DNA of 64,000 bases from contig OX467082.1 in NCBI GenBank assembly GCA_950106755.1, positions 186,001 to 250,000 on the forward strand, given 5' to 3'. The notes beneath the pieces were generated by a model that did no database searches, was not told the origin of the DNA, and saw only the letters and a list, made by a program, of their open reading frames with translations. Every line of letters begins with the position of its first letter. Positions within the stretch are counted from its first letter, which is position 1. The stretch comes from Climacium dendroides (taxonomy: Eukaryota; Streptophyta; Bryopsida; Hypnales; Climaciaceae). Of the stretch, positions 3,001 to 26,710 are shown one piece after another. The translations under genes were made by a program, and so were the position numbers.

Positions 3001-3099
3001 CATTTGAAAAAGTGCTTGCTTAGGCTTGAGGTGCTTGGGCTTGGCATTTAACCTCTAAATGTTTGAGGCACCAAAATATGGTATTTGCAAAACTTTGGA
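1..3099. other. AT-rich DNA, no gene recognised
   Basis: Strongly AT-rich DNA with only short, low-complexity open frames. I see no conserved domain, splice-bounded coding exon or RNA gene. A phrase near 588-607 (tgtttcttgcaatcaccc) recurs almost exactly near 27405-27422, so part of this stretch is probably an old dispersed repeat. Confidence 0.5.
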
Positions 3100-3600: not shown

Positions 3601-3654
3601 AAACAAGCCTTGGACATTGGAAGGTTAAGTTTGTGGAAAATTTTAGGTTTACAT

Positions 3655-3890
3655 CAACCCCATAGTTTGGCTAGGGTGAACTGACCCCCTCCCTTGGCCT
3701 TGCAAGCAAACCCTGTTTTCTGCACATAATTTTTTTTGCAAATTTTGAATTCATATTTGGGATTAAAGGCCCCAAACTAATAAAATGAAAGCTAGAATAT
3801 ACCTTGGAACAACCCGAAATAGGGTGGCTTTTTATTTACATGCACCCTTGATAAGGCCAAGCGAGGGGGTTAGTCCACCCCGATCCGTAG
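3655..3890. mobile_element. Foldback MITE-like element, family R2, copy 1
   Basis: The segment at 3669-3699 (core accccctcccttggcc) is the imperfect reverse complement of 3855-3881 (core ggccaagcgagggggt), so the element can fold into a long hairpin. The middle (gcaaattttgaattcatat...) matches the interior of the 56032-56262 element and, inverted, the 46015-46215 region. Three copies with terminal inverted repeats suggest a small non-autonomous DNA transposon. I could not fix a target-site duplication. Confidence 0.6.
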
Positions 3891-4079
3891 TTTCCGATCT
3901 TCTTCTGCCATGGCGACTTGTAAGGCAGTGCCTGCCATTAATACCATTCTGTCTGCTCACCGTGGTCATGTTATACAATCCTGTAGAGCTAGCTCTTTCG
4001 TGGAAGGGGTGGAGTCAGTACAAGAAAAGGGTGTCCCAAGTGACAAAATTTTGACACAATATTGTCAAAAATAACAACA

Positions 4080-5770
4080 AGCACTTTTCCGCACCCCATA
4101 GCTGTCAATTCTCCTGTCAATGTCTTGTCAAATACTCAATTTGGTGGATGAAAACAATCATGGACTTAATTTGTAGCTCCGTCGCTTATGGACCATCTTC
4201 CCAGTTTGAGCTCACTGGAAATTCTGCTGTCGATTTGCCTCACCTGCCATTGTTGGCATTCTTTTGCTTCTTCTTCTTTTTCCCTGTTCCCTTCCCACCT
4301 ACTTGCTTTCAAGTTTTCGAGCAAGCTTTAGAATTCGATGTCTCATTTTTTCCTGCTTTTTCTATCCATAGCTACTCTTAGAGTGCACGTTCACTCTCTT
4401 TTGCTGGTTTTGTGCGAAGGCTGCTTGGTTAATTAGGGTTTGGTTGAAGAACAAACAAATTTTTACGATTTTAGGGTTTAGGTCCTAAGGCCTTCATAAG
4501 CATCGCCATCTTGTCAACACTGCAAATCATGGCAAGTTCCATCAATTCCACGCTAGTTGCACAGCCTTGAGTGGGAAATGGCAAACATTTGTATCTGAAG
4601 TTTTGAATTTGGCATTGAAATTTAGGCAACGGCGCCAAAGTTCTGGAGATTGGGAGTTTGGGGTGCTCCAGAATTGTGCAGCTGCAACAAGTTTTAGGGT
4701 TTTCCAGCCGCATTCCAACCGGCTTTGCTTATATCCTAAAATGGCAGTAGTATCACCCGGTGAGTTCTCTCTTTAGCATGTTTGCTTCTCACAAATTGCA
4801 TTTTGGGTTCGATGTGTTCGTTGCCTTGTTTCATGCCTCGCGAAGCTTTACAAATTAAATGAATGTCTTGACTGAGATATGCTCTCCCGTTTCAGCGCTG
4901 TTGAGAGCTCGTCAAGCTTTGGCAATTGGGCTCTCATGGCATGGTGTGAAGTCGATCGATGGACAGCATTCTAATGTTTGAAAAGTTTACATATGTTGTT
5001 CGCAATGGTTGCAGAATTCAAAATGCTAAGAATGCTAAGGCATGCCTGAACTCACTGATTGAAATGGTTTGAATGTTGAAACACTTTGATTGTTTGGAAT
5101 TTTGTTTGGAGTGTCTTGGATGATTTGGATTTTGAGGGGATGGATATGCATGTGGCAGGTGAACGACTGCTCACATGTAATAGCCTGCAGAACTGCTGTG
5201 TTTGTATTATGATTTGTCCATGTCTAGTTTCTGCCACCGACACCACCGTAAGTTCATGTGATTTCCGTTCTGTCACTCACAGTGTCATATATTTTCTTTG
5301 ACTCAGTGATATATTATTGGAGATGGATAAGAGGTTTAACAAAACTCCAATGGAAATTACAGCAAGATCATACATGGGCCCTCATTGCATGTCAATGTTT
5401 TGGTATTTGTTCAAGCATGGTGAACATTTCAGATTATCATTTACTGCCATGCAAGTCAGTATGGAGGATGCTAACTCTTGAGGAAGGCTTCCATTTGGAT
5501 CGACTGAGAGTAATTATCTGGAGGGATGAGATTAAGGTTGTTACTGGCACTCCAAATAGGATTGGTATCCTCTACAACCGAAGAGCCGCACGACGAATCA
5601 CACATTCACAACACACCACAGCAGCTGCCAAGTCACAGTGATCATGCTTCGAAGCCCCTAGACGTACGTCAATCTCTAACTTACTGTTGGAATTTTTCTT
5701 CTTCTTTGACAGTGAATAACTGAGTTTTTTATATTCATCCATGTAGCCTAAACTCATCTATGCAAGGTAA
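4080..5770 (+). other. Gene-like tract with possible decayed transit-peptide exon
   Basis: This tract is clearly more GC-rich than its flanks and carries 5'-leader-like text (repeated agggttt). An ATG at 4529 opens a 13-codon Ser/Ala/Thr-rich peptide that stops at 4568. An overlapping frame then stays open to 4759 and ends at a good donor (cccg/gtgagt at 4760). Together they resemble the first exon of a nuclear gene for a plastid protein, broken by one frameshift. A second open stretch lies at 5258-5641. I recognise no product. A transcribed non-coding gene, a captured gene fragment or a pseudogene are all possible. Confidence 0.3.
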
Positions 5771-7863
5771 TAAAATCTGTTATTTTTTTAACAAGTATGC
5801 CGGGAATCACAACCCTTCTTTTACGTATGTTCAGGACCTGCTTTGTTTCCATATCATTGTGTTCATCAACTGAACTGGGTAGGTAAACCAGTTCTGGAAC
5901 TTATCTCCGAGCCATCCATGTGTCCGGACGTGATTCCAACTGAATCATATCATTTTGTGAAGCTCTAGGGGTAAAACCCCAATCCTTATCCCGAAATTCA
6001 TGACGGAGTATTTTTTGGCTGAAGGTGGGTTTTGGGCTAGTGCAGATGCTCTTCCCCTTCGGAGATGATCCAGCACAGTCCTGGTATCATGCATGCAAAT
6101 CGCAATATGCACGGTGTCAATCGGTGGCTTGTGAAGGGATGCCAATCGGCAGCTTGTGAAGGAATGCCCGATTTGGACAGCGCGCCGAAATCATCCGCCA
6201 AAGCCCCTGCTACGGCTTCCCTCCCGAACCTTGCTACAGCTTCCCTCCTGCCTGACTGACACGCTGGGGGCGAGATCCTATTTTCGAGGATGGAGTCCCT
6301 TGTTGTCCTCAGTGTAAGGTTGCTGACCTCCACTCCCTCTTTGTCCTCCTTATGCCGCTGTTGTTGCCGTGACTTTGAATGCGACACAAGAGAATGGGTT
6401 TGCTCACAGTCTTCTCTCGCTAGCTCTTGCTTACTTCCTTTGCAATGCTCGAGTTTGGATCTCCGTGCTTGTGTTTTCCAACTTGGGGTGTTGTCGACAG
6501 GGTTCGGGAGTCTAGTTTGTGGCTAGTTTGGGGAGCTATCTCAGTGGTGGTGTTTCGTGTTTGTTTGGTGTGTTCGGTAGCCTGTCAGTGATCACGTGGC
6601 TTGAATCTGCGTTTGCGTTCTAGTTTGGGTGGGGTGGTTTTGGTGGTTTCTATTTGATTCCAGGGGTGCTGGAGTTTGGTTTGTTGATTGAGGATTTGTT
6701 GCTTTGCTAATCGAGGATCTGTTGCTGGCGGTCGTTTGAGTGTTGGATACGACTTGGGAACGAGTGGGTTGAAAGTTAAGTTAGGGTGTGTTCTGAAACA
6801 CGATGGGAAGGGCTTGCGTGGCTTTACCTGGCGGAAGGGATCTGGAGAAAACGTAAATTGGAGCTTGACATGTAGGAACTTGTTGATGAATTCACTTGCT
6901 GCTGAAAGGCTAAGAGAGCATTAGGAGATTTCTCTTGTGTTTCTCTTGCATTCGGAGCGGAAGTCAACAGGAGTACTTTCGACGATTGTGGTATGTGCAT
7001 TTTATTCTCTTCAATTCTCTTACGCATTTATCAAGTTTTTTTGTAAGCTTTTGCGTACAACATTTTTGAAAGGAGCTTCTGTCTTCTTCTTGGGTCCATC
7101 TCGTCTACAGGAAGAATCAGGATATAGCTAAGATGTGCCAATCCTCTCGCATCTTTTTTCTCTGTTTACACACGTCTGTTATATCTTTGCTTCTTTGCAT
7201 CTTGAGGTCAAAAATTTGGAAGAAGGCAGCCCTTGGACATCAATCTTGGCCGTAGCTCCCTGTCAGTAGCAAGCACAAGTAGCATGTTGTTGCACCCTCC
7301 CCACATGTTGTCAGATGAATAGTATGGTGGATTCTCTCTTAGAGCAACTGGAGAATAGGTCAGTCCCAGGGTCCTCAATTGATTCGACAAGGTGTAAGAA
7401 AAGTTTGATATACCTAATCTGCTAGTCAGTGTGCCACGACAACCAAATACAGGTACGAATGAGTCAAGGGCTGATCGGCTTCTAGGGCTGTTGTAGGTTC
7501 TCTCTTAACAATGACACTAGCTGCTAGAATGTTTTGAATGTTTGAGTTTCTCAATTTTTGTTTTTGGACAGATGGCGAATTTTTTGTCAAAGTCATGTGG
7601 AGTAAACTGAATTCCTAATTCGGGACAGTTTCAGGGATATGTTTTTAATCTATGGATGATGGTTTTGTTTGTGCAGAGAGATGGAGGCTTACCTCGGCAT
7701 TGAAGTTGACATAACCAAGTATGTCTTGTCCCAAACATCTTTGAATCTCTTCCATTGCATTGAATATGAACGAAATACTCTTTTATGTGCATGTGTTGTT
7801 AGAATATGAACTGAAGACTACCTTTTGTGCACAGATTTCAGCGAGTCCTCCTTTTGTGCTTAG
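5771..7863. other. GC-richer tract, no product recognised
   Basis: This continues the gene-like composition of the preceding stretch. It holds a 25-bp tandem duplication at 6118-6142 and 6143-6167 (core cttgtgaagg). An intron-end-like signal, tttgtgcag, ends at about 7675, just before ATGGAGGCT at 7681. The open frames are short and resemble no family I know. The tract could be the leader and introns of an unrecognised gene. Confidence 0.3.
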
Positions 7864-8345
7864 ATTTTGCCATTACCTTAATTTCTCAAACATGTCGAAT
7901 ATGGATTTAAGATTTTTTGTGATGTAGAGTTTAGAACAGATAGAATGTACCTTGCAAAATCTTATGTTGTCTACTTAATGCTTTTAGAGTACTAATTTAA
8001 TTGGGAGTTTGTCTCATCATTTGCCATTACTTCACATTCCCCAAGATGTTTAATATGGGTTAAGGATTTCTTGTGATATAAAATTGAGTTTACATAGAGT
8101 GTACCATTTATGGTCCTATGTTGTCTACTTCATGTTTTTACAATAGTAATTCAATTGGAAGTTTGTCCAGTCATTGGAAGTAGGGACATTGATTTTGCCA
8201 TCATCATAATCTCTCAAAGATGTTGAATATGGGTTTAGGATTTTTTTGGTGATGTAGAATTGAGATCAAATAGAGTGTATTGTGCATGGTCCCATGTTGT
8301 CTACTCTTTATTTTTTGAATAGTGACTTAATTGCATTTTTATAAT
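7864..8345. repeat. Decayed tandem repeat, about three copies
   Basis: Three consecutive, diverged copies of a roughly 155-175 bp unit. The landmark gttgtctact falls at 7966, 8120 and 8296. Each unit also carries a 'gaatatgg..ta.gattt' block, a 'tgatgtag' or 'tgatata' block and an 'aattgg.agtttgt' block. Indels make the spacing uneven. No coding capacity. Confidence 0.8.
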
Positions 8346-11300
8346 TACAATGAACAAGTTCTATGAGAGTTGGTGACTTGAGAGTTTTGGCTTTGTTTTT
8401 TTCAACTTTCGCTTCTCTTGTGGTTTGTATTAGCATTGATTGTTTTTCTGATTATATTATGTGTGCGAACAATCGATCTAAGATTATGGTGTGAAGGCAA
8501 TACCACAATAGGATGGAATAGTTTCCAAGAGGTTGTTGTCATGCTTGAAATTGGAATTTGGAAAGTGTCCATGGACCAAAACGGACACATGGCATTGGTT
8601 GTTTCTGCAGGGAAGTTGTTAAAAAAAAGGGATGGTAGCTTAATTCTGTTCTGAAGCAATTCTTGCACAAGAATGATCATCAAAGAGATTGGGAAAGAAG
8701 TGGACTATTATCTACCTCCTCCACTCCTAAATTTATTATATAAGAAGCAAAATGGACATGTTGAAGCTTGTACTACAAGTGGAATGGAATGATAAGGTAA
8801 AAATAAATGCACATGGCTTGTGTAATTTCATCAAGTCCTGAGTCTAGATAATCTGAGTGCTAGTCTTGTTGCTATGCTTGTTCTAAAATGTGTTTGTGAA
8901 ATGTTGTGGGTGTTTCTACAACTTTAACATGGAGTGTGAACGTTTGCAAATAGGAATACATTGTTCACACGAAGGGCAAGCTTTGTAGGGGTGATCATCA
9001 AGATTTCTTATGCTAGGTATTTGCCATTGGTTTTGTTTTACTTTAGCCAAGTTGTGATTCATAGGCTTCTGGTGCAGATATGGGAACATAAGTTGGTGCA
9101 GTTGGTGCAGTTGGGACGCAATTTAGGAAGGTAGCAGCCATGAATCTCTAAAAGCCAAGCCAATTTCGCAACCTGTAGCTGGTCCTCTTGTGCATAATCT
9201 AAATGTGCCTCATTTGGTTAAGGAGGAACCTAACAAGACCGAAGCGAAGTGATGCTAAGCTCAAACGGGTACAGCTTTTATGCTATTGTCATTTATTCTT
9301 TAGTTTCATGAACAATGGCATAATTCCTCCTCTTTTCAATTGCCATCTTTTCAAAATGTCCTTATCTAGTTGTCATCATTTTCAAAGAAAGTTTCTAATG
9401 CTATATAACTCAAATTGCGCAAGTTTGTCTTGCATGCAACTTGGCATTACTATTAATACGAACTTGCTCTATTGAGGGCAACTGCTTGGGGTTCGAAATC
9501 CCTCATAAATTATGTTTTGTTGTGGAGATTCACTGCTTTGAGAGAATTTCTTTGAGTACACATTTTAGTTTTGGCTAATTTGGATATACTTTATTTGTCA
9601 AGTGAAGCCATCCACCAGTTCTCGAAAGCTAGTGATGGTCCAATACGTTCCTTCAGGTCCTAGTGAGGAATCCATGCAGTGAAGCTTTGGTCATCACCTT
9701 TCCTTGATGATGGAAATTGGAACACCAAGTTCTTACATGGTATTTATACCCGTTGTTGACGTAGACTTGGGGTTGCAGATGTTGAACTCTTGTGTTTTTT
9801 CTCATGGTTTGTAATGGCACTGGTGGATTGTATTGAAATAGGTGTGGAGAACTAGGACACTTTGGTTTGGGAAGTTTGCCAATCTCTTATTGGTTTACTT
9901 AGGTTGTACATGGTTTTGGGGATCTCACACTAGTGATAGCAACTTTTGTTTCTTAGATGATAGAGGAAAGCCTTGTTTGAAATTAGTTGTTCTCAGCTTA
10001 TGTGTGCTAAGTAATGTTTAGGGTGCATAATCCTTTTGTTTTGGTAGGTAGATTTGTTTTTATAATGTGTTTTAGTGCTCTACATTTGGGGTAAGTGTTT
10101 GAAAGTTGAAGCAATATGTGAAACAAGGGAGTAGTTGTTGCCCTTCTTTTGAGTGTGATCCAACTCATTGCATTGGAAAAGGGATTGAACCGATTGCATT
10201 GGATAGGAGGTTGTCATTACATTACAATGCCAAGTAGAGTATCATCATGTGGAGTTTATTAGCCTCTAGAGTTTGGTTTGAGCTTCTTTTATCCTATTTT
10301 TTCAACGGAGCTCTAAACATGATTGGAAGAGGATAAAATGGATAGGTGACAAATAACAAGGTTCATTTTAGATTTTCACTTCATGAGGCAATTGGGGGAG
10401 ATAAGTACCTTGCATTGATGGATCCTAGTCATGTATTGCCTCTAGGTCTTGAAGTGAATTTAACAAGGGAGGAATGTGGATGATTTTTTAACTCTGCAAG
10501 ATTCTAAGAAGGCTGATTGATCCCATTGGCCTCTCATTGACCCTTGCTCAAGCTTACCTAGATCTAGAATATTGAGAAGTGGTCATTGTTCCTAGGCATT
10601 TCTTTGGGTTGTTCATCTATATTCACTTTGGTGATGAATTTGGAATCTAGGATTGATATTCAAATTTAGATATGAACTTAGTACATTTCTAATTCAAATG
10701 TAGACATGAACTTAGTATTTGTTAATAACAACATTGAACTTCATAAAAATAAATGCACATTTGGAGATTAGGTTGAACAAACATCATGAAGATGATCTAT
10801 GAACATGAATTTTTGATGTAAGTATTCAATTGGGATGTTATATTGCAGTTTTGGCTTCTCCAATAGTTAGAAAAATGGCATATGGATGGTGACTTTCAAG
10901 GTTGACTTGTGCTATCACTCAAAGGTAGTGGTGGATTGTCACGTGTGAATCATTTGATTTTGCACTGTATGTTACTCTTTACATTTATCATTCTCTTTAA
11001 GAATATGATCTAATATTTGAATTATTTAGATGTTGAATTGGCATGTAATGATGTATTGAGCATTTTCAATTTGGGAGTGCAAGTGAATTACTTACATTGG
11101 AGGCTAATGATGAGTACTGCAACTTTCCAAACATTTACTAGAAATTTCTCAATGCTTTTCTCAATGCTATTATATAGATATTTGTTTTTTTACTAATGGT
11201 TTTCAATTGATATTTGACTTCTAATTGGATACCTTCATGTTTTGGAGCAGGTTGTTTTGAATGATATTTTGACTCTTCAATTTTCATCTAAAACATGCAA

Positions 11301-11400
11301 GTGATAGATTTATATGCAAGTTTTAAACAATCATCAACACTTTGTTGAATGTATTGTTGAAGATCCAACATTTGCGAAAGGAGTTTTTAACATTTATTAT
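8346..11400. other. No gene recognised
   Basis: Composition falls back to AT-rich after about 9.6 kb. A short hydrophobic open frame at 8418-8654 and one at 9203-9475 have no recognisable domain. Nothing else can be supported. Confidence 0.4.
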
Positions 11401-11792
11401 CTTAAATTGTATTTTGTGAGATCTATTTTAGCTACCAAGAAAACTAAAACAGAGAAATTATTATACTGAAGTATGGTAATAAGTACTATACAAGATGGAG
11501 GTTGATGTGTTCACATCTATTACTATCAAGGTGAGTTTTGACATTTTCAATCCATAATTAATTATTGTTTAATCATTGTTAAATTGTTTTTAATTTGGGT
11601 TTTTATTACAATTTTTATTTTCTAAATAATTTTTTTTTTGCTGCAGGTATGGAATATTAAGTTTCAAAATCCAATACATTCGACGGAGTGTTGATGATTA
11701 TTTAAAATTAGCATTTTAAGACAACCCAATTCCGCATTTTAAGACAGCCCATTTTAACTCTTTACTTTCAAATTTATCTTCAATTTTTCATT
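11401..11792 (+). other. Exon-like segments upstream of the tandem array
   Basis: A strong donor (tatcaag/gtgagt, intron from 11531) is followed 116 bp later by a pyrimidine-rich acceptor (ttttttttgctgcag, ending 11646). From there an exon-like segment runs to another donor (cattgtaagt, intron from 11793). The sequence before 11530 reads partly open (11460-11530). These signals face the same way as the Tet-like ORF at 15446 and line up with the splice signals repeated in the array, so they may be upstream exons of the same transcript. No transcript evidence is available. Confidence 0.35.
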
Positions 11793-11837
11793 GTAAGTTT
11801 TTCTATCCTAAAATTCTTATTTTTAATATTTTAAAGT

Positions 11838-11983
11838 ATATTTTTGAAGTTAATTTTTATTATCAAAAGTTTTTAATTCATGAGAATTCTTTTATGCGCG
11901 TAGTGCCATTTAGGCGACCACGCTGTAGAAGGGATTTTCATGAATTAAAAACTTTTGATAATAAAAATTAACTTCAAAAATAT
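11838..11983. repeat. Perfect 46-bp inverted repeat around the first array hairpin
   Basis: Positions 11838-11883 are the exact reverse complement of 11938-11983, with a 54-bp loop. The loop contains the gcgcgtagtgcc...gcgaccacgc motif found in the array units. Later units keep the right arm but not the left one, so the full hairpin exists only at the 5' border of the array. Confidence 0.9.
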
Positions 11984-14900
11984 GAATTTAAAATGTATTA
12001 TATGAATGTTTTGAATGTTAAATTTATTATTACATATATGTTATTTTAAGTTTTTTGTCATGTATTTATAAATTTTAGTTTCTTATTCAAATTTTAACTT
12101 ATGTTGTTTGTTTTTGCAGATGTAAAATTTTTTTTTACTTTCTATTTTCAAGTTTATTTTGGATTTTTATTTCAAAGTTTATTTTTGATACCTTACTGTA
12201 AGTTGTTCATTTTATATCTTTTATTGTTTAATTAGTTTAGAATCTTTTATTTTCAATGTTATTTTGGCTTTATATGAAGTAATTTTTTTTTAAAATTTTA
12301 AAAGTCATAAATTTTTTATTCATGAGAATTCTTTTATGCGCGTAGTGCCATTTAGGCGACCACGCTGTAGAAGGGATTTTCATGAATTAAAAACTTTTGA
12401 TAATAAAAATTAACTTCAAAAATATGAATTTAAAATGTATTATATGAATGTTTTGAATGTTAAATTTATTATTACATATATGTTATTTTAAGTTTTTTGT
12501 CATGTATTTATAAATTTTAGTTTCTTATTCAAATTTTAACTTATGTTGTTTGTTTTTGCAGATGTAAAATTTTTTTTTACTTTCTATTTTCAAGTTTATT
12601 TTGGATTTTTATTTCAAAGTTTATTTTTGATACCTTACTGTAAGTTGTTCATTTTATATCTTTTATTGTTTAATTAGTTTAGAATCTTTTATTTTCAATG
12701 TTATTTTGGCTTTATATGAAGTAATTTTTTTTTAAAATTTTAAAAGTCATAAATTTTTTATTCATGAGAATTCTTTTATGCGCGTAGTGCCATTTAGGCG
12801 ACCACGCTGTAGAAGGGATTTTCATGAATTAAAAACTTTTGATAATAAAAATTAACTTCAAAAATATGAATTTAAAATGTATTATATGAATGTTTTGAAT
12901 GTTAAATTTATTATTACATATATGTTATTTTAAGTTTTTTGTCATGTATTTATAAATTTTAGTTTCTTATTCAAATTTTAACTTATGTTGTTTGTTTTTG
13001 CAGATGTAAATTTTTTTTTTACTTTCTATTTTCAAGTTTATTTTGGATTTTTATTTCAAAGTTTATTTTTGATACCTTACTGTAAGTTGTTCATTTTATA
13101 TCTTTTATTGTTTAATTAGTTTAGAATCTTTTATTTTCAATGTTATTTTGGCTTTATATGAAGTAATTTTTTTTTAAAATTTTAAAAGTCATAAATTTTT
13201 TATTCATGAGAATTCTTTTATGCGCGTAGTGCCATTTAGGCGACCACGCTGTAGAAGGGATTTTCATGAATTAAAAACTTTTGATAATAAAAATTAACTT
13301 CAAAAATATGAATTTAAAATGTATTATATGAATGTTTTGAATGTTAAATTTATTATTACATATATGTTATTTTAAGTTTTTTGTCATGTATTTATAAATT
13401 TTAGTTTCTTATTCAAATTTTAACTTATGTTGTTTGTTTTTGCAGATGTAAATTTTTTTTTTACTTTCTATTTTCAAGTTTATTTTGGATTTTTATTTCA
13501 AAGTTTATTTTTGATACCTTACTGTAAGTTGTTCATTTTATATCTTTTATTGTTTAATTAGTTTAGAATCTTTTATTTTCAATGTTATTTTGGCTTTATA
13601 TGAAGTAATTTTTTTTTAAAATTTTAAAAGTCATAAATTTTTTATTCATGAGAATTCTTTTATGCGCGTAGTGCCATTTAGGCGACCACGCTGTAGAAGG
13701 GATTTTCATGAATTAAAAACTTTTGATAATAAAAATTAACTTCAAAAATATGAATTTAAAATGTATTATATGAATGTTTTGAATGTTAAATTTATTATTA
13801 CATATATGTTATTTTAAGTTTTTTGTCATGTATTTATAAATTTTAGTTTCTTATTCAAATTTTAACTTATGTTGTTTGTTTTTGCAGATGTAAATTTTTT
13901 TTTTACTTTCTATTTTCAAGTTTATTTTGGATTTTTATTTCAAAGTTTATTTTTGATACCTTACTGTAAGTTGTTCATTTTATATCTTTTATTGTTTAAT
14001 TAGTTTAGAATCTTTTATTTTCAATGTTATTTTGGCTTTATATGAAGTAATTTTTTTTTTAAATTTTAAAAGTCATAAATTTTTTATTCATGAGAATTCT
14101 TTTATGCGCGTAGTGCCATTTAGGCGACCACACTGTAGAAGGGATTTTCATGAATTAAAAACTTTTGATAATAAAAATTAACTTCAAAAATATGAATTTA
14201 AAATGTATTATATGAATGTTTTGAATGTTAAATTTATTATTACATATATGTTATTTTAAGTTTCTTGTCATGTATTTATAAATTTTAGTTTCTTATTCAA
14301 ATTTTAACTTATGTTGTTTGTTTTTGCAGATGTAAAATTTTTTTTTACCTTCTATTTTCAAGTTTATTTTTGATACCTTACTGTAAGTTATTCATTTTAT
14401 ATCTTTTATTGTTTAATTAGTTTAGAATCTTTTATTTTCAATGTTATTTTGGCTTTATATGAAGTAATTTTTTTTTTGAATTTTAAAAGTCATAAATTTT
14501 TTATTCATGAGAATCCTTTTTTGCGCGTAGTGCCATTTACGCGACCACGCTGTACTAAGAATTTTCATGAATTAAAAACTTTTGATAATAAAAATTAATC
14601 TAAAGTTTTTGTATTTAAAATGTATTTATATGAATGTTTGGAATATTAAATTTATTATTATATATGTGTTATTTAGTATATATTCATAAATCTTAGTTTT
14701 GTTATTAAAATTTTGAATTATTTTATCTATTTTTGCAGGTGTAAATATTTTTTTCACCTTCCACTTTCAAATATATCTTGGATTTTTATTTTCAAATTTA
14801 TTTTCAAATATTTAAGGTAAGTTATTTATTTTATATTGTTTATTGTTTTTTGTTTCAATGTTTTTTGAGTTTTCTTTATTGTTAATTTTTTTTAAATTCT

Positions 14901-15340
14901 ATAAGTTATTATTTTTTAATTCATAGAAAGTCCTTTTTGCGTGTAGTGCCATTTAGGCGACCACGCTGTAGTAAGGATTTCGATGAACTAAAAAAAATTT
15001 ACAATAAAAACTAACCAAAAATATATTAACTTAAAATATATTTATATCAATGTTTTAAATATTAGATTTATTGCCATATTTATATTATTTTGAGTTTTTT
15101 TATATGTATTTATAAATCTTAATTTCATTATTTAAATTTTCAATTGTTTTCTAAGTTTTCATAGGTATCAACTTTTTTATTTGAATTTTGAATATTTCTC
15201 TTTTTATTTTGAAAATCATGGAGGATTTTTTTCTTTTCATTTCAAAGTTCATTTTGAATTTTTCATAGTAACTGTTTTATTTTATATTTATTGTTTCATT
15301 ATTTTAGATTTTATAACTTTAAAATATTTATTTTAAATGT
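11884..15340 (+). repeat. Tandem array of ~442-bp units with repeated splice modules
   Basis: The landmark gagaattct recurs at 11882, 12324, 12766, 13208, 13650 and 14092, a period of exactly 442 bp. Shorter, diverged units start near 14509 (417 bp later) and 14925 (416 bp later). The first five units are almost identical; divergence rises towards the ORF at 15446. Each full unit holds (1) an imperfect GC-rich hairpin, gcgtagtgcc...ggcgaccacgc, (2) a 3' splice-like site tgtttttgcag, (3) a 78-nt exon-like segment starting ATGTAA, and (4) a donor cttact/gtaagt. Predicted segments include 12120-12197 and 12562-12639, separated by 364 nt. The diverged unit at 14739-14816 still has 78 nt between acceptor and donor. 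The unit before 14509 has lost about 25 bp within this segment. Confidence 0.9.
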
Positions 15341-15445
15341 TTAAACATAAAAAATTTATATCCAAAATTTTCTTTGAATATAAATATTATTGAAGATAGT
15401 TTATTAATATAAGTATTCTTAAATATAAATTTTTTTTTTGAATTA

Positions 15446-16600
15446 ATGACTCGATGTTTTATGTGTCCAGAAATTTTTAATATGGGAGGAAATAAAAGAT
15501 CAGCAAGGGGAAAAGGATCAGAAAATAGAAAAGCAAAGTTGCGAAAAAAAAAGAGGAGAGATATGAATATTGAAGAAGCTCTAGGGAAAATTGGAGATGA
15601 TAAAAATACGTATATTTTGGAGAGGGAGAGGTGTGATAGAGATTTCAATGGAGAAATTATGAAAAATATTCCAAATGATTATTATCGTATCTTTTGTGGA
15701 GAAATGGCTGTGCAAGATGTGAGTTCTCGAGAAATTGTATGTATGGTGAAATTCTCACCATTTACTGTGGAGGGTTTACCCAATATTGGAATGTGTCTCG
15801 AGCAAGAAGAAGAATTTAATAAATTAACTACATTACTTATGGAACTTTCCAAAAGTGGTTACGAAATTAAGGGAAATGGTTCACATAAAGGAGGAAGTGG
15901 AGTGATGCAAGCTTTGGGTTGGAGAGCAGGTTATGACAATGATTCTGGGGGAAGATATCATCCTTCAGCAAAAATTCAAAAATCAGAGGAAGCTTTGAGA
16001 AATTGGAAGAATGATCAAGAAACTAAGGTTGCGTGGATTGCAAATTTTTATCGCAATCGTTTTAGTAATATGGCATCCAGACTTTTTGAGTACACATCTC
16101 AAGAAGCACAAAAATCTGGTGTACCAGATTTATCTCAAACTGAATTTCAAATTGGAGAGCAAATTCCCGGGGTTTTCGCAAGTAATTTGACTTGTACTTA
16201 CGGAGATTTTTCAAATTCACTTCATGTAGATCGAGATTATAATACCTACTCTTATGGAATTTGGGCACCTATATATTCTGATAGTGGAGAATTATATAAA
16301 GGTGCAGAGTTTCAATGTAATGGAGGAGAATTTGTAATTCCAACTTATGGAATTTACATTGATTTTAAGGATTATAAGGGCATCGTGGAAATTATATGGA
16401 GAAGTTCAAAAGATTTTCATGCTACTTTACCATCTGAAAGTGGTTTGGGATTTTCAAGACTTGGAAGCTCCGTACAAATTAGCCGTTCGTTAGTAAATAA
16501 ATTATGGAGTTCCATCAGAAAAGAAAAATCTATTGATGATGTTAATGCAAAGATATGTAGTGTGAGCAAGATTATGCAGAAAAATGGCATATTTGATTAA
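15446..16600 (+). CDS. Tet-like 2-oxoglutarate/Fe(II) dioxygenase
   Basis: An intact, intronless 384-codon ORF. Residues 17-38 are Lys/Arg-rich (KLRKKKRR at 31-38), a likely nuclear localisation signal. The C-terminal half has the layout of a double-stranded beta-helix 2OG-Fe(II) oxygenase. It has an HxD metal-binding pair (His260, Asp262) in a 'SLHVDRD...YGIWAPI' context, a GGEF turn at 293-296, a 'GIYIDF' strand at 302-307, 'GIVEIIWRSSKDFHATLP' with the distal His325, and Arg338 in 'FSRLGSSVQIS' as candidate 2OG anchor. This order strongly resembles the Tet-like oxygenases expanded in basidiomycete fungi, where family members oxidise 5-methylcytosine and some travel with transposons. DNA methylcytosine oxidation is an inference here; no activity can be read from the sequence. 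I chose the first ATG; Met13 (15482) is equally possible. The gene lies directly downstream of the splice-module array. A transposon passenger or an old horizontal acquisition are both plausible. Confidence 0.75.
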   Translation: MTRCFMCPEIFNMGGNKRSARGKGSENRKAKLRKKKRRDMNIEEALGKIGDDKNTYILERERCDRDFNGEIMKNIPNDYYRIFCGEMAVQDVSSREIVCMVKFSPFTVEGLPNIGMCLEQEEEFNKLTTLLMELSKSGYEIKGNGSHKGGSGVMQALGWRAGYDNDSGGRYHPSAKIQKSEEALRNWKNDQETKVAWIANFYRNRFSNMASRLFEYTSQEAQKSGVPDLSQTEFQIGEQIPGVFASNLTCTYGDFSNSLHVDRDYNTYSYGIWAPIYSDSGELYKGAEFQCNGGEFVIPTYGIYIDFKDYKGIVEIIWRSSKDFHATLPSESGLGFSRLGSSVQISRSLVNKLWSSIRKEKSIDDVNAKICSVSKIMQKNGIFD

Positions 16601-16835
16601 GTTTTATTTTTAAAATTAGAATGTTTAGAATTATGTAATTATATCTATATATTATTGTATTTCATTTGAATACATGATATGTAAAGATATTTTAATGTAA
16701 TTTTGATTTATATATATGTGTTTTTGTTTTTATTTTATATTTGTTTGTTTTGTATTTATTTAATTTATATGTATTCATTATTTTTGAGGTTGTTTGTATT
16801 TTTTATATAAGTGTATAAATTATTTTACTTCAACC
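16601..16835 (+). other. 3' flank of the Tet-like ORF
   Basis: Very AT-rich sequence, probably the 3' untranslated region and the downstream border. There is no canonical AATAAA close to the stop. No copy of the array hairpin motif is seen downstream, so the array is one-sided. Confidence 0.4.
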
Positions 16836-17735
16836 TTAAAGCCCTGAAGGGCATTTTTTGGCAACATAGCAATTTTAGGCAGCTCATTACAAATGGAGTT
16901 TTTACTTTTTTTCTTTGAAATTTTCACATAACATGTGTCCAAAGATCAGCTTTAAAGCCCAACAATTTTCATAACATTTAACTACATGGTCAAAGAGTTA
17001 TTGCATGATATGTTGTTTTCTTTGCTCGGTAGGTAGCCCGAATAGTAAAAAAAATTTTTTCAAAAATCATTTTTTTTTAAAATGAAAATTTGATATTGGT
17101 TTCTTAGATTTTTAGGTATGTGGAAAGCTTTGAATCATTCCATTTGGATAAATGAGATGAAAGTTATGAGAGTTTTAGTTTGAAAGTAGTTTATGGGAAG
17201 TTTTGGAATCTCCACTCTAAAATAAATTTTGAAGTTCTCTATTTCATCCAATTTTCAATATTTAAAAAATAAAATAAAAACATTGGATGTAGATTGTCTA
17301 TTAAAACATTACAACCATTGGGATTTACAATTTTCATTTTTATAAATAAACTATGAACAATATAGTATTTTGAATCATTTTCTACAACTTTCTACTTACT
17401 ACTTTTTTCCTACATGTTGTACAATTCCAAACGCTTTGAAAATTTTCAAGCATGTAGCCAACTTCACTTGAAGAGAGAATCTGAAGAGTAACAACCATTT
17501 TGGACAATTTTTCATACCAATGTGCCCTTTTGAAGTGCAGGTGTCTAGGTTTTTGCAGGGATAAAATGAGGATTTTTGTCACTTCAAACACTAATATCTT
17601 ATTACTAGCTTATTACAAGATCTTATGATTACATGTGTTAAAAAGTAATTTTCCTCTGAAATTTGGTAATTGTTGTAGAAATGACAGTTTTGGAGTGATT
17701 TTGGTGAAATCTTAGTCAAAACCTTTAGGGGTTAA
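16836..17735 (+). mobile_element. Non-autonomous DNA transposon, family R1, copy 1
   Basis: About 900 bp matching, in inverted orientation, the well-bounded copy at 59033-60000. Shared blocks include attttttggcaacatagc, the 'catgtagccaacttcac' block and a right end ctttaggggttaa at 17723-17735. The left end (ttaaagccctgaaggg) is degenerate. A minus-strand open frame at 17382-17591 has a counterpart in the 59-kb copy, both ending in a CTTCRKK-like tail. It has no known domain, so I treat it as repeat sequence. Confidence 0.75.
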
Positions 17736-20700
17736 ATGATGATAATTATTTTTTGATAATTGCTTTTTTTTTTTACATTTTAGTTTTTATTAATAACAAG
17801 TACTTTAATTTGTATTTGATATCAAAATCTAAAATAAAAGGTAATAATGGGTATAGTTTTATTTTAATTGAAAATAATATCTTAAAAAATATATTCATTA
17901 AGGATTATTATTGAATTTCTTATTTTATTTGCAATAAAACCTAGATCATTGAATTGTTTCAGATGATTTATTATCAATTGATAAAATATAATATTTATAA
18001 ATCCCATAAAGAAATATAAAATATAAACCAAGAATTTGCAGTTAGATCTATAAGTATTGTAGTGATTGATATAAGTAGCTTTGGTAAGAATGTTAATAGA
18101 AATAATAACTAAATGAAGGAATAAGAAATTTTTATAATCCTATGTAGTTATCATAGCAATTTATTTTATTAATTTTTTATTATTTAAAATTTAATGATAA
18201 ACAAATTTTTTATGGAAAGTATATATTTTATGATTTTGTTGTTATCTAAACATTACCATGATATTGTCTTGTTCTATGCATTTAATTCTACTATTTTTAT
18301 GTTTTAATATTGTAAAATATATTTTATTTAGTTTCGTAGAGCTTATTAGATTTGTAAAATACTTTCATAGTTTATTTGTAAGTCATATAACAAATTTTAA
18401 TGTATAAAAAAATACATCATTTGATTAACCAATGTAAAAATTATGAATATGAGAGTTAATTTTTTTGAGAAAGGTTTTTAAATATTTCTTTAAAAATAGA
18501 TTCATATTGATTTTAGAGATGTACTCAAAGTAATATAGTGTCTTTAAGTTGTATACTTGGTCACTTTCCACATTAGATATCCCTAATATAAAGTCCTAAA
18601 TCATATATGTGCATTGTCATTTGGATTGTTCAAAAAGAAGTTATCTAATTTTACAACTCTGAATTTACAATTTGCTTGTTAATCATCCACTTTAAGACTA
18701 TTGTAATGAAATGGCTTACTTTAAGTATGCAAATTGTATAAAACTTTATTTTTTGTTTTCAGATAATTGAAATTTCTGAAATTAATTTATTATGTGGTAT
18801 ATTTCATAGTAACTTACCAAAGTTACACAATTTTAAAGTTGTGCAAACTAAAATATTATTGTAATGTAAATAATTTTTACTGAAATAATATATAAGTAAT
18901 GACAATGACTTTATGCCCATGCTACCATAATAAGATAAATTTTTAGACCTAGAGTTCACCTTTTTCATTGCATGACATTTAGGTGAATAATGTGTATGGA
19001 TAATAATTAATGTCAATATTAAAGCATTTTCAATCTATCCAAATATGCTATTAGGCTTTTCTAGTGGAGATTAGGCAAATTCTAGACCTAAAATGTAATA
19101 ACTAGAAGGTAAGAGGATCCGAAATTTGATGAGAAAGAATTACAAGCTAGAAAGAAAATTGTTTCTTTTTTGGAATATAAATGCTAAAATTCATAATGCA
19201 TTGCTTTCAAAAATTTATAGAGGTCCATTAGTGGGCACCAATACCAAAGCAAAATCTAGCAAAATTTGGCCATTAATCTTCAAACCCTAGCTATATTTTA
19301 AGGGACAATGGCCAAATCTCACTACATTTTGATTTGGTAATTGTAACCTATATTTTACACTTTTACTTTCTTTTGGAAGTACTTGTCCAATGTCTAATTT
19401 AGAAAAAAATAAAAATTTACCTTCTCCAAGTTCTTTCCAATGAGCTTCTAATGAGATAATTTCCAAGTTCTTTTTATTTTTTTTTCCAAAAGTTATTTAT
19501 ATTGTTACAAGGCCATATGTCAATGAATGATTACAGATGCTTAAAGTAATATTGAATTGCATACAATGTAGTGAAATTATATTGCCTTGCATCAAGAAAG
19601 TTACTTTATAAGTTATTAAGGTCAATAAACATTTCCAAATATATTTGGATTGTAGTACACGCAAAGGTTGATGAGTTTCAAAAACAAAAATGCCTAATTC
19701 AAAAGAATTGCACCTTCTTCTATAAAAATTGAGAATATTTATATGGTATCAAATGTTACAAAATTAGTGAGGAGCAATCTAATTTCAACATTCCTTGTAG
19801 TTAAATACATAGGTGTTTTATATGCTATATGAAGAATCCAACTGTGATATAACAAATGAAAATGTCTAAGAAAATATACAGTGCCAAAACTAAGATAAAT
19901 TAATGAAGTTCTATTCTTGATTTTATCATAAAAACTAAAGTCTTTTTGCAATAATCATTGAAATATATAAATTGAATAAAAAATTGTTGATTTGTTATTG
20001 ATTTGGTTACCCTTTTTTAATGGTAGCAAGTCTTGCAAAAGCTAACTCTGCATCTGTACTATATGTAGTAAACCCTATTCAACCTAAAATGTAGAGTTAT
20101 CATACAAGCTAAATTAAAATGATTTAGTTTAATATTGAGATTTTTGTTGTCATATTGATGTACTTTAGGAAGCGTTGATTTACATTTCTAAATCTTTCTT
20201 TTTAAACATATATTTCATTATAAACAAATAAAATCACAACTTCTATAGCAATCATTTTATAGTCCTTTTACTTCACTATATGACCTTGTTTATTTCCACT
20301 ATATTTTAGATAATTTCATTTACTATATAGAATCTATAATTGATTAATCATTTATTATGGTATTTTTTCTTTGATAACAATCGATGATTTTTTTATTTTG
20401 GCTTGTTTTACAAATATCCCAATATATAATATTGGTTGTAATAATAAACTAACATTTAGCAGTAAATTGAAATATGTATAGTGCATTGAATATTGTTGAA
20501 AATATTTAATGTTCATATTTCTAAATCATATTAAAGGTTTATCTAATTATTTTTAGTATATAAAAATGATTTCTAAAGTGAAATTAGAAGTCTTTTTTAC
20601 AAATGTAAAGTTTTTTTTTGTAATCTTATTTTTAAAATTTTTGAAATCAATGAAAATTGTTTAAGTTTGACTTGTAAAGAACTTAAGAGTTTTTCACTTT

Positions 20701-21480
20701 TTGCTTGACTTGTATGCTTGTCCAAGTGTTTTCTATGATTTACCTATATTTTTTTTTAATTTTTAATTTTTTATATAACTTATTAGTAATTTAATTTAAT
20801 TCATAGAAACAAAATTCAATTGAAAGAATATAACTTTCACACATAGAACCAAATGTGCAAAATTGCTTTGCTACATTTGTACTCATTGAAAGCTTTTTGG
20901 CAATGCTAAGAATAACATCAAGAACTTTTATAATCCATTTTTTATAATCTAGTTTAATTCATAATTGTAAAAATAGCTCATACATCCAAGATATGACCAA
21001 AAGCAATGATACAACTTTGAAACGACTTTCCTGAAGTTAAGTTTTGTAATGGTATAAAGAGGATATTGGGTGACTGCATAGTTGGAGATACCATTGTAAT
21101 TTTACTTTTATTTAATCTCTAATTTTTGTTTTGCATACATAAGTATACATGGGGTGCAAAGTTTGCACACTCTTGATTGATCATGATTTAAAAATTCAAA
21201 CACTTTTCTTTAAAGTAGTGATATAAATTTTTTTTTTATTGGTTTTAAGGCTTATTTCCTCTCTCCCTTCTTTTTTCCTTCTTTCCCTTCCTTTTTCTTT
21301 CTTTTTGCTTCTTCACTTAGAAATAGGTCCTAGTACCCCTCCATCCTTTCATTCAAAAAAGCTTACAACTTATGCACCAAAGGTTTGCTTTACATAAGAG
21401 TTTGATGTAGTTGAAATTTCTAGAAAACTACACTTGCAATAGAAATTCTAAGAACAAAGTAGTACAAATTGAGATTAAAC
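17736..21480. other. AT-rich intergenic DNA, no gene recognised
   Basis: Long AT-rich tract with only short open frames at 18804-19016 and 19739-19951, neither with a recognisable domain. No repeat structure that I can bound. Confidence 0.5.
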
Positions 21481-23281
21481 AATTTATCTAAGGTAGGCAC
21501 AATGGGCCTTTAGAGGTTAAACCAATTCACCTAAAATTATTTTAAATAAAAAAGACTATTTTTAAAAGTAGCTTTCACTATAATATGTCAAATTTTTTTA
21601 TTTACTATTTCTAAAATTTTGAACTTCTATACTGAAGTCTTAGGTTTTGATTAGCCAAGTAAGCCTAAAGTATATTTTGATATTATTGCCAAAAAATGGT
21701 TCCAAATTTTATCATGGCATATAGAAAAAGTGTAGAAAATTTTGACAAAAATAATTTGACTTCAATATAGCTTTGTCTATTATATTGGAACCAAAATAAA
21801 GCCAGAATAAAGCCTACAATAAACCATGCTGAAGATTTTATCATGATAGTTTGGAGTAAACACTAAGGAGTACAAGTTTTGGAGGGGGGATCATTGACAA
21901 AGTTGAAGCCACCTAGTGCAAAAAACTACATGAACAAGGTCCCTATTTCTCATCTATTGGTTGAGATTTGAATTGTAGGACATTGATTGGATTTGACAAA
22001 TGCACTTCACATCATCTCTAACAAATAACCAAATGTAAGAAATAATGCCAAACAATCCAAATAAAAAATAATTGTGCAACTTTCTCTATATCTTTTTTCT
22101 ACCTTTGGGTTTTTTTCCTACTTTTGATAGAAAAGTGGTTTGTTTAGAATACATTTTTTTAGTTCCATTGCTTTTAATGTTGGTCTTTACAATTCTAAGA
22201 TACAACTTGCACCACCATTGAAGTCATTAGTTGTAATTTTAAGTATGCAATTTTGTTTCTATCTTCAAGAATGCATGCTTTTTATATATAAAGTGTAAAT
22301 TGAAAATAAAGGAATTGTTTTGGCTCAAGAAGTGTTGACATTGCTTGAGCACTCTGAGAGTTGCAAATGGAACTTGAAGAAAAATCACAGTAATTAGATC
22401 CATACAAGATAGGTGGCTTCAATTAGTATCAAAATAATGCCTCAAATATACTTAACTTATTCATTAGTAGACTTGTGGTAGTTTCATGAAGCTCCAAAGT
22501 GTAAAATAGTAATGATCCACCCAAGTTTACATTCACTCATTGACTAATATGCCTTCAACTTCCATTTTTAATCAAATCCTATTTCATAACTTAGTGATTA
22601 AATTTCATGTGTCTTTGCAATCCACTAAGTAGAACCAAAAGTGTATGCTGAACCCTAAAAGCATATGAGATGTAGTACTAGTAAATGAGTAGAGGCATGA
22701 GCAACAAAGAAGAATGATATAAAAATAATTTACTGAAATTTATACATGAAGATAGAATGATTGGATTTAAATGTCCAATAGACTTGCCAAATTATAGATG
22801 TGCTCTATTTCTTTGGTTAAAATGATAAATTAACCATGGTTGAAAGTATTGGATTTTGTGCTGCAATTATACTCTTTATCATCCCATGAGTTGGTGGTAA
22901 GATGGTAAACACAATTCGTATGTTATGAAAAGTTATCACTACAATAGGATTTAGCATATAGTTAATGCACTAAAAAATGAGCATAGTCTAAACACACCGT
23001 GGGCATGTAAAATTACAACTAATAAGGCACTTTTTCAACTTGAGTCTAGAGATGAATGTGCTTTGTGTACAAGGTTAGAAGTTTCATCTTTAAGGATAGC
23101 TTTTGAATAATGTTTGGGTGATGGAAAATCTTTATAAAATTAGTATACCATGCTAGAACAATTGGATGAAATCCCAGCAAACACATGTGCTTAATAACCA
23201 TTGCTATCTAAAGTGGAAAGAAAACACATCATGATAGTAAATTGAAATCCAAAAAATTTCAACAATATGAGCTAGAGTTTT

Positions 23282-23360
23282 TGTTTGTTTGTTTATTTGT
23301 TTGTTTTTGTTTTGTTTTTTGTTTTTATTTTGAGACAAATGAGATTTCATTGCCAAATAC
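23282..23360 (-). mobile_element. Very short retroposon with 15-bp target-site duplication
   Basis: A T-rich run followed by gagacaaatgagatttcattg is flanked by the direct repeat atgagctagagtttt (23267-23281 and 23361-23375). Read on the minus strand it is a short 3' end with an A-rich tail, as left by a 5'-truncated LINE or SINE. Confidence 0.8.
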
Positions 23361-24865
23361 ATGAGCTAGAGTTTTCATATGATCATCATATTTAGTAGCC
23401 TTTAGAGAGGCTACCTTTTCCTCTTTGAACCCGTATGAACAAAAATTCATCCATTTGATTTTCTAAAAAATTTCAACTATGATTTAATAGGGAGTAACTT
23501 ATTGTAGCAATTAGAAAAGAAAAAGAACTCAATGTGACTCTTTTATTGGGAGTTTGCCCAATCAAATTTTCACTTTGTTAGGTATATGCATTTTGTGATT
23601 ATGTTAATATGTGTGATCATCAACCATCTTGGGCTCATGACACAAGGTTAGTGGATGTCAAATTGGATCATTAGGTCATTAAGTTAATGACTAGAAATGA
23701 TTAGAGTGAGATTAAGTTGATTGTAGATACATCTTTAGTTCAACTCATTGCCTTGTTTCTTACATTGACAAATTCTGACATTTGAAAATTAGTTACTAAT
23801 GGTGTGGAATATTTCAGACCATTTCATCCTCTGCATGGAATAATGTGAAATATTCCACTTCATTCTATTAGAGGAAAGGGAGTCCAACTAACTCCTAATG
23901 AATGTAATAATGGTTGCATTTTACAGTCTTGTAGAATTGTTTCTAGGAAATAGCCCTGTCCTTATTTGATCTTCAAACCCTATTTCAATGTGCCAACAAA
24001 AAACTACAAAATTTCATAGGCATCATGCTTCCCACCTATTACATTGAAAATCATTTCAAAGTTTATGGAACTTCAAGACAAGCTCCAAAGTACAAGTGGA
24101 GAAATAAAATTGCAATACATTGGTTTGATATTGAATTTGGAATCAAACTTTTCATATAGCTTTATGCAATTTTTTCTAAAAATATGAAAAATCAAATCTT
24201 TTTGCTCATGTAAATGTTTAAAATGAATTGCAATTCCTATCTATAAGGAATTAAATTGGTGCATTGAAATTTGCTACAGAAACATGATATCTTGAAGAAA
24301 AGAGAAAGGGAGAGGAATTAAAGTCTAGATGAAAGTGCATGTAAGGGAAACATCAACAAAAATTGAAACCCAACATCTCAAAAAAGGACTAAAACCATGG
24401 AGCCCCCTTCCCTCTTGGAACAAAAGTATTGGATAAAAAGAAGAAAAAATGGAAAAATATGCCGAAGAAACACACAAAGCAATAATTGATGAAAGCAAAA
24501 GATTGGAAAGTGCAGTTAAAAAAATATTTAATTAAACCATCTACATAAAGGTGGATGTTTGGTATTTAATGAATGACAAGAAATTCTTCCACTTAAGAAA
24601 ATACAACAACTCATCATCTTTAGAATGAAGAAATACAAGCAAGCATCTTCTACTATTTTTTGGCCTTTGGTAATTGTTTTTTTTGAAAAAAACAACTAAC
24701 ACATTGATTCCTATCATATCAAAATATGACTCCATAGCTAAGTGCCATTTGGAATTCTATTAGATGCCACTTGTCCATCCAATTGCCATAAATATGTTTA
24801 TCTTTTATTGTTGATTTGTTAATTTTAAATGTTATTTTCTTGCCCCCCTCAAAAACTACAAGTGG

Positions 24866-24992
24866 TCTTTGATATCTCAAAAATAGAAAGAGAGAGAGAG
24901 AGAGAGTCTTTGACATCTCAAAAATAGATAGAGAGAGACAAAGAGAGTCTTTGACATCTCAAAAATAGATAGAGAGAGAGACAAAGAGAGAG
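24866..24992 (+). repeat. Minisatellite with GA-rich microsatellite
   Basis: The phrase tctttgayatctcaaaaata followed by a (GA)n-type run is repeated three times in tandem, starting near 24867, 24907 and 24948. The gaga runs differ in length between copies. Confidence 0.85.
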
Positions 24993-25252
24993 ATAATATC
25001 TTCAATTGTTCATTCCACCTACATTGAATACTAAGATTAGATGACTAATTTCTCAACATGCCACCCTAAATGAATATTTATCACTAATGTACAAAAAGAC
25101 CCTACTTCTAAATTAATAATTGGTGTATTTGGAACTCATGAAACTCCATGTGCACACATGAAAGTATTTATAGAAATGGTTTTTTTTACTTTGATGGCTT
25201 TTATAGTGACTTTCTTGGGGTAAGGCACCCTACTTGCAAAGGCACCTAATTT

Positions 25253-25333
25253 TTTCTTTTAAAACACATGGAAAATTTCCATTGATAATGGAAACCAGAC
25301 TATGGACCAAAGGCAAAGCCCTGGTGACATTCT
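25253..25333 (-). mobile_element. Very short retroposon with 15-bp target-site duplication
   Basis: An 81-bp insert with a T-rich left end and a 'catggaaaatttccattgat' core. It is flanked by the direct repeat aaaggcacctaattt (25238-25252 and 25334-25348). The minus strand reads as a LINE/SINE-like 3' end. Confidence 0.85.
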
Positions 25334-25913
25334 AAAGGCACCTAATTTCGCTGTTTAGGGTAGTTATTGATGGTGCTACATGAATGTTGCCAAATATCAC
25401 TACAGTAGACTAAAGAAATAGTGGCAATTAGTTGCATAGATGCAACCCTATTCCATGCAATCTTGGGATCTACAACACATGCCTCAATTTATGCTTGGCA
25501 TTTCCAAGTGTTTGCTAGCATGAACTGTAAGCACCTACTCCTACGGTCTAAGACACAATGATTTGAAACTACCCTAGCTAAGTTTAATGGTTCAAGGCAA
25601 TCTTAATTATACAACCACTTCATAAACATGGGCATCAAACAAGAAATTTATGAGGTTTGGCATCCTCTGTTTAGGAGCCCATACTTCTAAAATAAAATAA
25701 CTTCATTGTGGCCCCATGGTCTTGCCTCATAGCACAATCAAAAGTCCACTCATAACTACCGTGATATTTTGAAGATAATTTTTGACCCTCTTTGAAGTGG
25801 TTGGACATTATTTTGCACTTGTTTTGTTTTTTTGCTTTTGTTTTTTTGGCACAAATGAAACCATTATTGTGCAGTTGGAATGTGTGCCATAGGTCCATGT
25901 AATTATAGCCTTA

Positions 25914-26544
25914 GAGCAACCCCACGCCGGCGTGCCAAGCAACTCAAACACGCTTGGTGGGCATGTCAGGGCTAAAAAACTGCCCCATGGCAAACTCGTC
26001 AAACGAGGAAAACTGGTCGGCCTCTTCAAAATTTGAAGATGGCACTAAGGGAGGAGGTCCTTAAATTGACCATTTAAGCCCACCTAACTCATCAATGATA
26101 GTAGTAGATTTTTCAGAGATTATGTCATCCTTTCCTAAATAGGGGACGCTTTTAGAACCTGCTCGATTTAAGGACCTCCTCCCTTAGCAAACAATGGGTC
26201 TTGCGAGGGCTCTCTGTGTGCTTTGGCACAATTTGCGAGGTTGAGTTATGGCCATGTTTTGTGGATTTCCTTGGAAACTGTAGAATATATTGCTAGCTGG
26301 CAGGCTTGATGCTAGTAGTTTATTTGTTAGATTGTCTTCTGAATTTGATGATTAATGGTTGTACAGTAGAAAGTGTAACAAAGTTTTTGGGACTCCATGT
26401 TGAAATAACTGGTCTGCTCTTGGCATGTTTAGATATTCATTCAGTAGTGGGGCATATGTACACCACATGGCGTAGGCTTGTCAAGAGAGCATGCCAAACT
26501 CACCCTTGGTGCCCTTCTTTGACGCCCAGGCCATGGGGTTGCCC
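25914..26544. mobile_element. PIF/Harbinger-like non-autonomous element
   Basis: A 631-bp element bounded by imperfect terminal inverted repeats: GAGCAACCCCA on the left and TGGGGTTGCCC on the right. It is flanked by the 3-bp direct repeat TTA (25911-25913 and 26545-26547). The related sequence near 45837 reads 'ggcctttactacaac' and has no element, giving an empty paralogous site. A TTA target duplication and a G-rich terminus are typical of PIF/Harbinger and Tourist elements. A perfect 22-bp internal inverted repeat lies at 26045-26066 and 26166-26187. I see no transposase. Confidence 0.85.
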
Positions 26545-26615
26545 TTACTACAACTTTTGGGTGTATTGTATAAAGATCATGGATATCTGGCAATGGACAT
26601 GTTTTTGAGTAATAC

Positions 26616-26710
26616 TTTTTTTTTTTTTTGAAACTCATGGACAATTTCCATTGATAAGAGGGAAATAGTACAAAGAACCAAGGGAGAACCCCAATGGCCA
26701 ATTTTTTTTC
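26616..26710 (-). mobile_element. Truncated LINE-like 3' end
   Basis: A T run, then gaaactcatggacaatttcc and a 'tagtacaaagaacc' block. It is flanked by near-identical gagtaatac (26607-26615) and gagtaatcc (26711-26719). The matching site in copy B (around 45903) lacks the insert. The minus strand ends in an A tail, as in 5'-truncated LINEs. Confidence 0.75.

Follow-up and report, generated by a model that had tools for sequence, protein, structure and literature searches.

How does an uninterrupted gene for a Tet-like dioxygenase come to lie near the end of a moss chromosome, and what might its product do there? The question is raised by a 64,000-nucleotide stretch of the Climacium dendroides genome, hereafter the window (positions 186001-250000 of contig C1, OX467082.1, in assembly GCA_950106755.1). 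A preliminary description, made from the sequence alone, had placed in it an open reading frame (ORF) for a modified-base dioxygenase, possibly carried by a transposon and either acquired horizontally or kept from an old lineage, in a genome of plant type. The analysis given here makes it reasonably probable that this ORF encodes an intact TET/JBP-type dioxygenase of Pfam family PF20515, that it belongs to an old, dispersed moss family of which one lineage is borne by a Harbinger transposon, and that the enzyme recodes 5-methylcytosine (5mC) to counter silencing.

The ORF translates into 384 amino acids followed by a single terminal stop codon, and it holds H260, D262, H325 and R338 as well as an N-terminus rich in lysine and arginine, just as first described. 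From stop to stop the frame spans 395 codons; in 100 versions of the window drawn from a first-order Markov model the longest frame was 187 codons and the mean 140. The protein matches PF20515 (2OG-FeII_Oxy_6, Tet-like, where 2OG is 2-oxoglutarate) over profile positions 5-211 of 211, with an expectation value (E) of 1.3e-49. Its 169.5 bits across the domain, over a curated cut-off of 27, place it in the PF20515 superfamily. The assignment to a Tet-like family is supported for PF20515 and does not extend to Tet_JBP (PF12851), a different Pfam model, which is absent from the family matches of the protein up to E 10 and gave two weak matches across the genome, none over the cut-off. All four residues are invariant in the six rows of one alignment, so that the HxD...H iron triad is present; in a wider alignment that takes in gene fragments they are kept in 11/12, 12/12, 10/11 and 10/11 of the rows with a letter at the position. 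Translation probably starts at Met13, giving a protein of 372 residues, because this methionine aligns with one in the relatives P0002, L024 and L027, and because in the near-identical copy L006 the third codon, ahead of Met13, is a stop.

When the predicted structure is compared with known ones, TET-family structures rank top and CMD1 of Chlamydomonas is the best structural match, a ranking that suggests a TET-type fold for the model. The model is of low confidence, and a second one was no better (predicted local distance difference test score 53.2). Structural alignments with TET2, NgTET1 and CcTET show 8-10% identity, and no credible match came from searching the PDB by sequence (best E 0.14).

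The ORF has many relatives in the same genome. A search with the protein gave at least 111 matches (107 of 151 candidates scored), which merge into at least 77 loci on 13 contigs, many of them broken; a search with PF20515 gave at least 89 (117 of 117 scored). The lineages are only 36-59% identical to one another, and the family therefore appears to be old. In the tree the window copy groups weakly with the fragments L007 and L008 (support 80/89). A second type is represented by three copies, L024, L025 and L026, two of which have some 21 kb in common, in blocks that are 93-99% identical. Their unit also has a second, spliced gene, in which two Cys/His motifs resembling zinc fingers accompany another dioxygenase-like domain (13 bits with PF12851, under the cut-off of 34.9), and an ORF with a weak match to the En/Spm family Transposase_24 (16.7 bits, under 28.7). 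This second gene is itself multicopy, with one copy at L031:4762-6294 (C40:383762-385294). Five of its copies reach at least 94% identity (107 of 148 candidates scored); four of them have a PF20515 locus no more than 10 kb away, and three of these four are the L024-L026 unit. A third type, with an intron (L035 and L037), has at least 5.6 kb in common at 95%. Only four relatives were found outside the genome, which speaks neither for nor against horizontal acquisition. Viral contigs and prokaryote genome contigs yielded no confirmed relative, and PHROGs and NCBIfam yielded none. PF20515 was absent from 14 control genomes as well, which says little because LEAFY is also absent from them and there is seemingly no plant among them.

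The link with a transposon is seen in the sister lineage L027, where a stop-free dioxygenase frame lies 1.8 kb downstream of an open 473-codon frame for a Harbinger transposase (PF04827, E 2e-82; PF13359, E 1.2e-12). Searching the genome with this transposase gave at least 102 matches, merged into 89 loci (97 of 528 candidates scored, a scope that applies to all the Harbinger figures). A TET locus lies within 6 kb of 12 of these 89 loci, against 0.24 expected under uniform placement; the two genes share a strand in 12/12 cases, and the TET gene is downstream in 11/12. All nine transposase loci of 92-100% identity are coupled, at a spacing of 1846-2033 bp, as are three of the 80 less similar scored loci. 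A fixed arrangement of a Harbinger DDE transposase and a TET gene is present in this lineage. At L027 itself, the TET gene is bracketed by inverted arms of about 0.8 kb (77%), and the transposase lies outside them. Five convergent inverted pairs of TET genes were also observed, in three of which each arm bears a transposase, equally spaced and with an equal or nearly equal score; such pairs are possible sources of hairpin RNA or possible assembly fold-backs. Among other candidate partners, MULE transposases gave 41 matches, and inspection placed none of them closer than 6 kb to a TET locus. For CACTA, 150 of 825 candidates were scored; as judged by inspection, one of them is 5.2 kb away from a TET gene (C40:11319573) but falls outside the stretch common with the sister copy. 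The KDZ transposase PF18758 has no match in the genome, which shows little because the 14 controls gave no match either.

The suggestion that the gene is carried by a transposon holds for this sister lineage and finds no such support in the window copy, which lies in a large duplication with no transposase found in reach; the L027 transposase has no match around it. Six copies, 98-100% identical as protein, lie within duplicated blocks. The block on C4 measures 28.3 kb at 99.4%, and the largest blocks on C37, C40, C44 and C35 measure 13.9-17.1 kb at 97.9-99.8%; 30 kb was compared per copy, and the matching reaches an edge of each 30-kb stretch. The distance to a contig start is 190-235 kb for four of the six copies, and another copy lies 3.2 kb short of the end of C4. 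Only two contigs showed telomere repeats: C1, which begins in CCCTAAA repeats, and C4, which ends in TTTAGGG. C44 is a 412.5-kb contig of unplaced position. Four of the six are free of internal stops, and the C-terminus is altered in L005 and in L006. The window copy itself keeps an open frame and is an orphan, set in a large duplicated segment close to a chromosome end.

These observations can be assembled into the following picture. An intact Fe(II) dioxygenase of TET/JBP type would be encoded in the moss nuclear genome by a dispersed family of many lineages. In one of them the enzyme gene follows a PIF/Harbinger transposase in a fixed arrangement, and the two appear to move together, presumably through the action of that transposase. 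The enzyme would most likely oxidise or otherwise recode 5mC on the DNA of the element, and the recoded DNA would then escape silencing by host methylation. The last step is drawn by analogy with fungal TET-carrying transposons, for which an anti-silencing role has been proposed (Kojima 2025, PMC12730594). The DME-type domains of the host, described below, count in favour of this picture.

Several points weigh against it. The nine closely coupled loci represent only six places, because three of the places are inverted pairs. L027 is the sole coupled locus read as DNA, and no convincing terminal inverted repeats (TIRs) or target-site duplications were found in it; the search returned 13 pairs, each of 14 bases and with 2 mismatches, and in one of them the 3-base flanks matched. 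No transposase was detected near the window copy when 130 of 213 ORFs of at least 60 amino acids were scanned at E 0.01, a scan that a very decayed one could escape. In L004, which belongs to the six near-identical copies, codon 33 is a stop. The ratio of nonsynonymous to synonymous change (dN/dS) between deep lineages, from 0.29 (L024-L027) to 0.49 (window copy-L024), speaks for the picture, but it was obtained at dS of 1.06-1.43, which is near saturation. Among recent copies the ratio is 0.43-1.9, with few changes and no clear constraint, and two pairs have no synonymous change. Judged from these sequences, the pattern fits a gene that was kept during spread and drifted after duplication; it does not imply selection on the window copy. 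By spacing only, Q344 occupies, in 11/11 rows, the position at which TET2, NgTET1 and CMD1 (Phe416) stack an aromatic residue on 5mC. Finally, even in fungi the anti-silencing role lacks experimental validation (PMC12730594).

The origin of the family could be explained in other ways. It is rather unlikely that this is a host family of plant DNA-base dioxygenases that grew by ordinary or chromosome-end duplication, the Harbinger link being one capture that was later multiplied. Such a history would suit the six closest copies, which are segmental duplications rather than separate insertions, the lack of a transposase found near the window copy, and the constraint on the deep lineages; it sits poorly with the number of dispersed and broken loci, with the absence of clear constraint in recent copies, and with how far the coupling to one lineage of transposases exceeds chance. 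That the family reflects fungal contamination, or was passed on from a fungus very recently, is extremely improbable, although TET-carrying transposons are known in fungi (PMC12730594). The genome comprises 412.6 Mb in 123 contigs, and copies of the family occur on 13 of them, including one starting and one ending in plant telomere repeats and the contig that carries LEAFY. The single LEAFY locus found, on C34, scores 242.8 bits with PDB 4bhk, which we take to be the Physcomitrella protein (next chain 173), and the Asp in its MRDYV motif is presumably a mark of the moss type; DME-type RRM domains occur at five places. The spread over 13 contigs and these plant markers therefore disfavour a stray fungal contig and agree with the plant-type genome first described. 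The low identity between the lineages, which makes the family old, argues against a fungal source as well.

Other chemistries must also be weighed. That the protein is a CMD1-like enzyme, using vitamin C instead of 2OG and adding a glyceryl group to 5mC, is quite unlikely. Counting from the Fe ligands, R160 corresponds to CMD1 Arg244 (one residue off over 100; kept in 12/14 rows with a letter), W273 to Trp358, T327 to Thr399 (11/11), R338 to Arg410 (10/11) and S342 to Ser414 (11/11). TET/JBP enzymes have a second basic residue for 2OG after the distal His; in CMD1, Arg410 points away from the pocket, and Trp358 takes the place that in TETs belongs to the Arg that binds 2OG (PMC7854593). The vitamin C pocket is fitted, by spacing, by R160, W273, T327 and S342 and not at His249, and Ser335/Thr337 fit only after a one-residue shift. 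Against such an enzyme stand the mapping itself, which was made without superposed coordinates, on rows that include near-identical copies and with a model of low confidence, and the residues that are unmatched: Asp350, Arg418, Phe245 and His249, whose mutation abolishes CMD1 activity, and Phe416, whose mutation causes an eightfold loss (PMC7854593). Asp350 and Arg418 have no counterpart in the moss family by spacing, and position 346, where a His or Arg contacts 5mC (R+8), is Ser, Ala or Pro, again by spacing only. Since CMD1-like residues are kept and base-contact positions differ, the protein is likely a base-modifying Fe(II) dioxygenase, with 2OG or vitamin C as possible co-substrate. A dioxygenase that is TET-like in fold only and acts on RNA, another DNA base or protein is unlikely. 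The bolder proposal that moss transposons carry vitamin-C-dependent CMD1-like enzymes, which would turn 5mC on the elements into glyceryl-methylcytosine or another hypermodified base hidden from methylation readers, is very doubtful; if true, it would connect a base modification from algae with the way in which transposons of land plants counter silencing.

Table 1. Features of the window and inverted TET-gene pairs elsewhere in the genome (positions without a contig name are those of the window)
Feature	Position	Strand	Basis or remark
Part of window inside duplication	1..30731		30-kb comparisons; reaches 42246 with the C4 copy
AT-rich array of 7.5 tandem copies of a 442-bp unit	11863..15140	+	directly upstream of the ORF
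Tet-like dioxygenase ORF, 384 codons + stop	15446..16600	+	translation probably from Met13 (15482)
PF20515 (2OG-FeII_Oxy_6, Tet-like) match, residues 121-330	15806..16435	+	profile search
HxD iron-ligand codons H260 and D262	16223..16231	+	translation, six-row alignment (A2)
W273, at the distance of CMD1 Trp358 from the HxD His	16262..16264	+	10/10 rows with a letter
Distal iron-ligand codon H325	16418..16420	+	translation, six-row alignment (A2)
R338 codon, 13 residues past H325	16457..16459	+	translation, alignments
Genome-wide high-copy repeat, 750 bp	16851..17600	+	just downstream of the ORF
Inverted pairs	C3:29347963-29350294, C41:958287-959892, C39:16032030-16033706		TET gene, convergent
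Inverted pairs	C3:4642469-4644418, C38:12414306-12415572		TET gene, convergent

The surroundings of the ORF have features of their own. Strong matches to the 442-bp array are limited to the six near-identical copies, the exceptions among 42 matches being two that are weak and short; its unit contains a GC-richer core, GCGTAGTGCCATTTAGGCGACCACGC, and stretches resembling splice sites. At L002/L011 (C4:4725638-4730000) the duplicated block ends in this array near TTTAGGG telomere repeats, an arrangement that looks like telomere addition at a broken end. Over positions 6000-19000 the strands are asymmetric, with more G than C and more T than A, and the stretch becomes very AT-rich around the ORF. 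The 750-bp repeat was set aside as a feature linked to the ORF, being a common genome repeat (6713 first-look candidates, 40 scored) that is probably unrelated. Further along, a 714-codon ORF (39045-41189) has weak family matches below the cut-offs, and a fragment at 53842-54444 looks related to it by eye. One ORF of the window matched HEAT (E 0.00068), and that at 61329-61673 resembles, by eye, what we take to be a fragment of a PP2A A subunit.

As the coupling in the sister lineage suggests, transposons of plants and of some fungi alike may carry a means to counter silencing by DNA methylation. Oxidised 5mC has been reported from plants (PMC11233409, PMC6917789), and the moss family would be a candidate kind of source for it. 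In the literature searched, TET-carrying transposons are described from fungi only, and none from a plant or moss is among the matches listed. The moss family would carry such elements beyond fungi and provide plants in which to test them.

Compared with known systems, the predicted moss enzyme shares the fold ranking and the Fe ligands with the 5mC oxidases TET2, NgTET1 and CcTET, from which it differs in its low identity and in the Gln at the base-stacking position by spacing. To CMD1, a TET homologue that acts as a 5mC glyceryl transferase, it is closest in structure, and the two have in common the HxD...H motif, the Trp, a Thr at H+2, an Arg at H+13 and a Ser at R+4; they differ in the 5mC contacts of CMD1 (Asp350, Phe416, Arg418), and the moss family is multicopy and, in one lineage, linked to a transposon. 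VANC of the Arabidopsis VANDAL elements is likewise a plant transposon gene that counters silencing, reported there and proposed in moss; the VANC proteins are described as acting against silencing in a sequence-specific way (PMC10398659), whereas the moss protein is a predicted enzyme. The fungal TET-carrying DNA transposons include PHISTA, of the PIF/Harbinger group in Puccinia (PMC12730594). The moss host differs in being a land plant, its transposase matches PF04827, a plant-transposon model, and TIRs and target duplications were not found in L027, nor a transposase by the window copy. Moss and fungal systems share a TET/JBP gene linked to a PIF/Harbinger-type transposase, an HxD active site unlike the PE type, many copies per genome and a proposed role against silencing by methylation.
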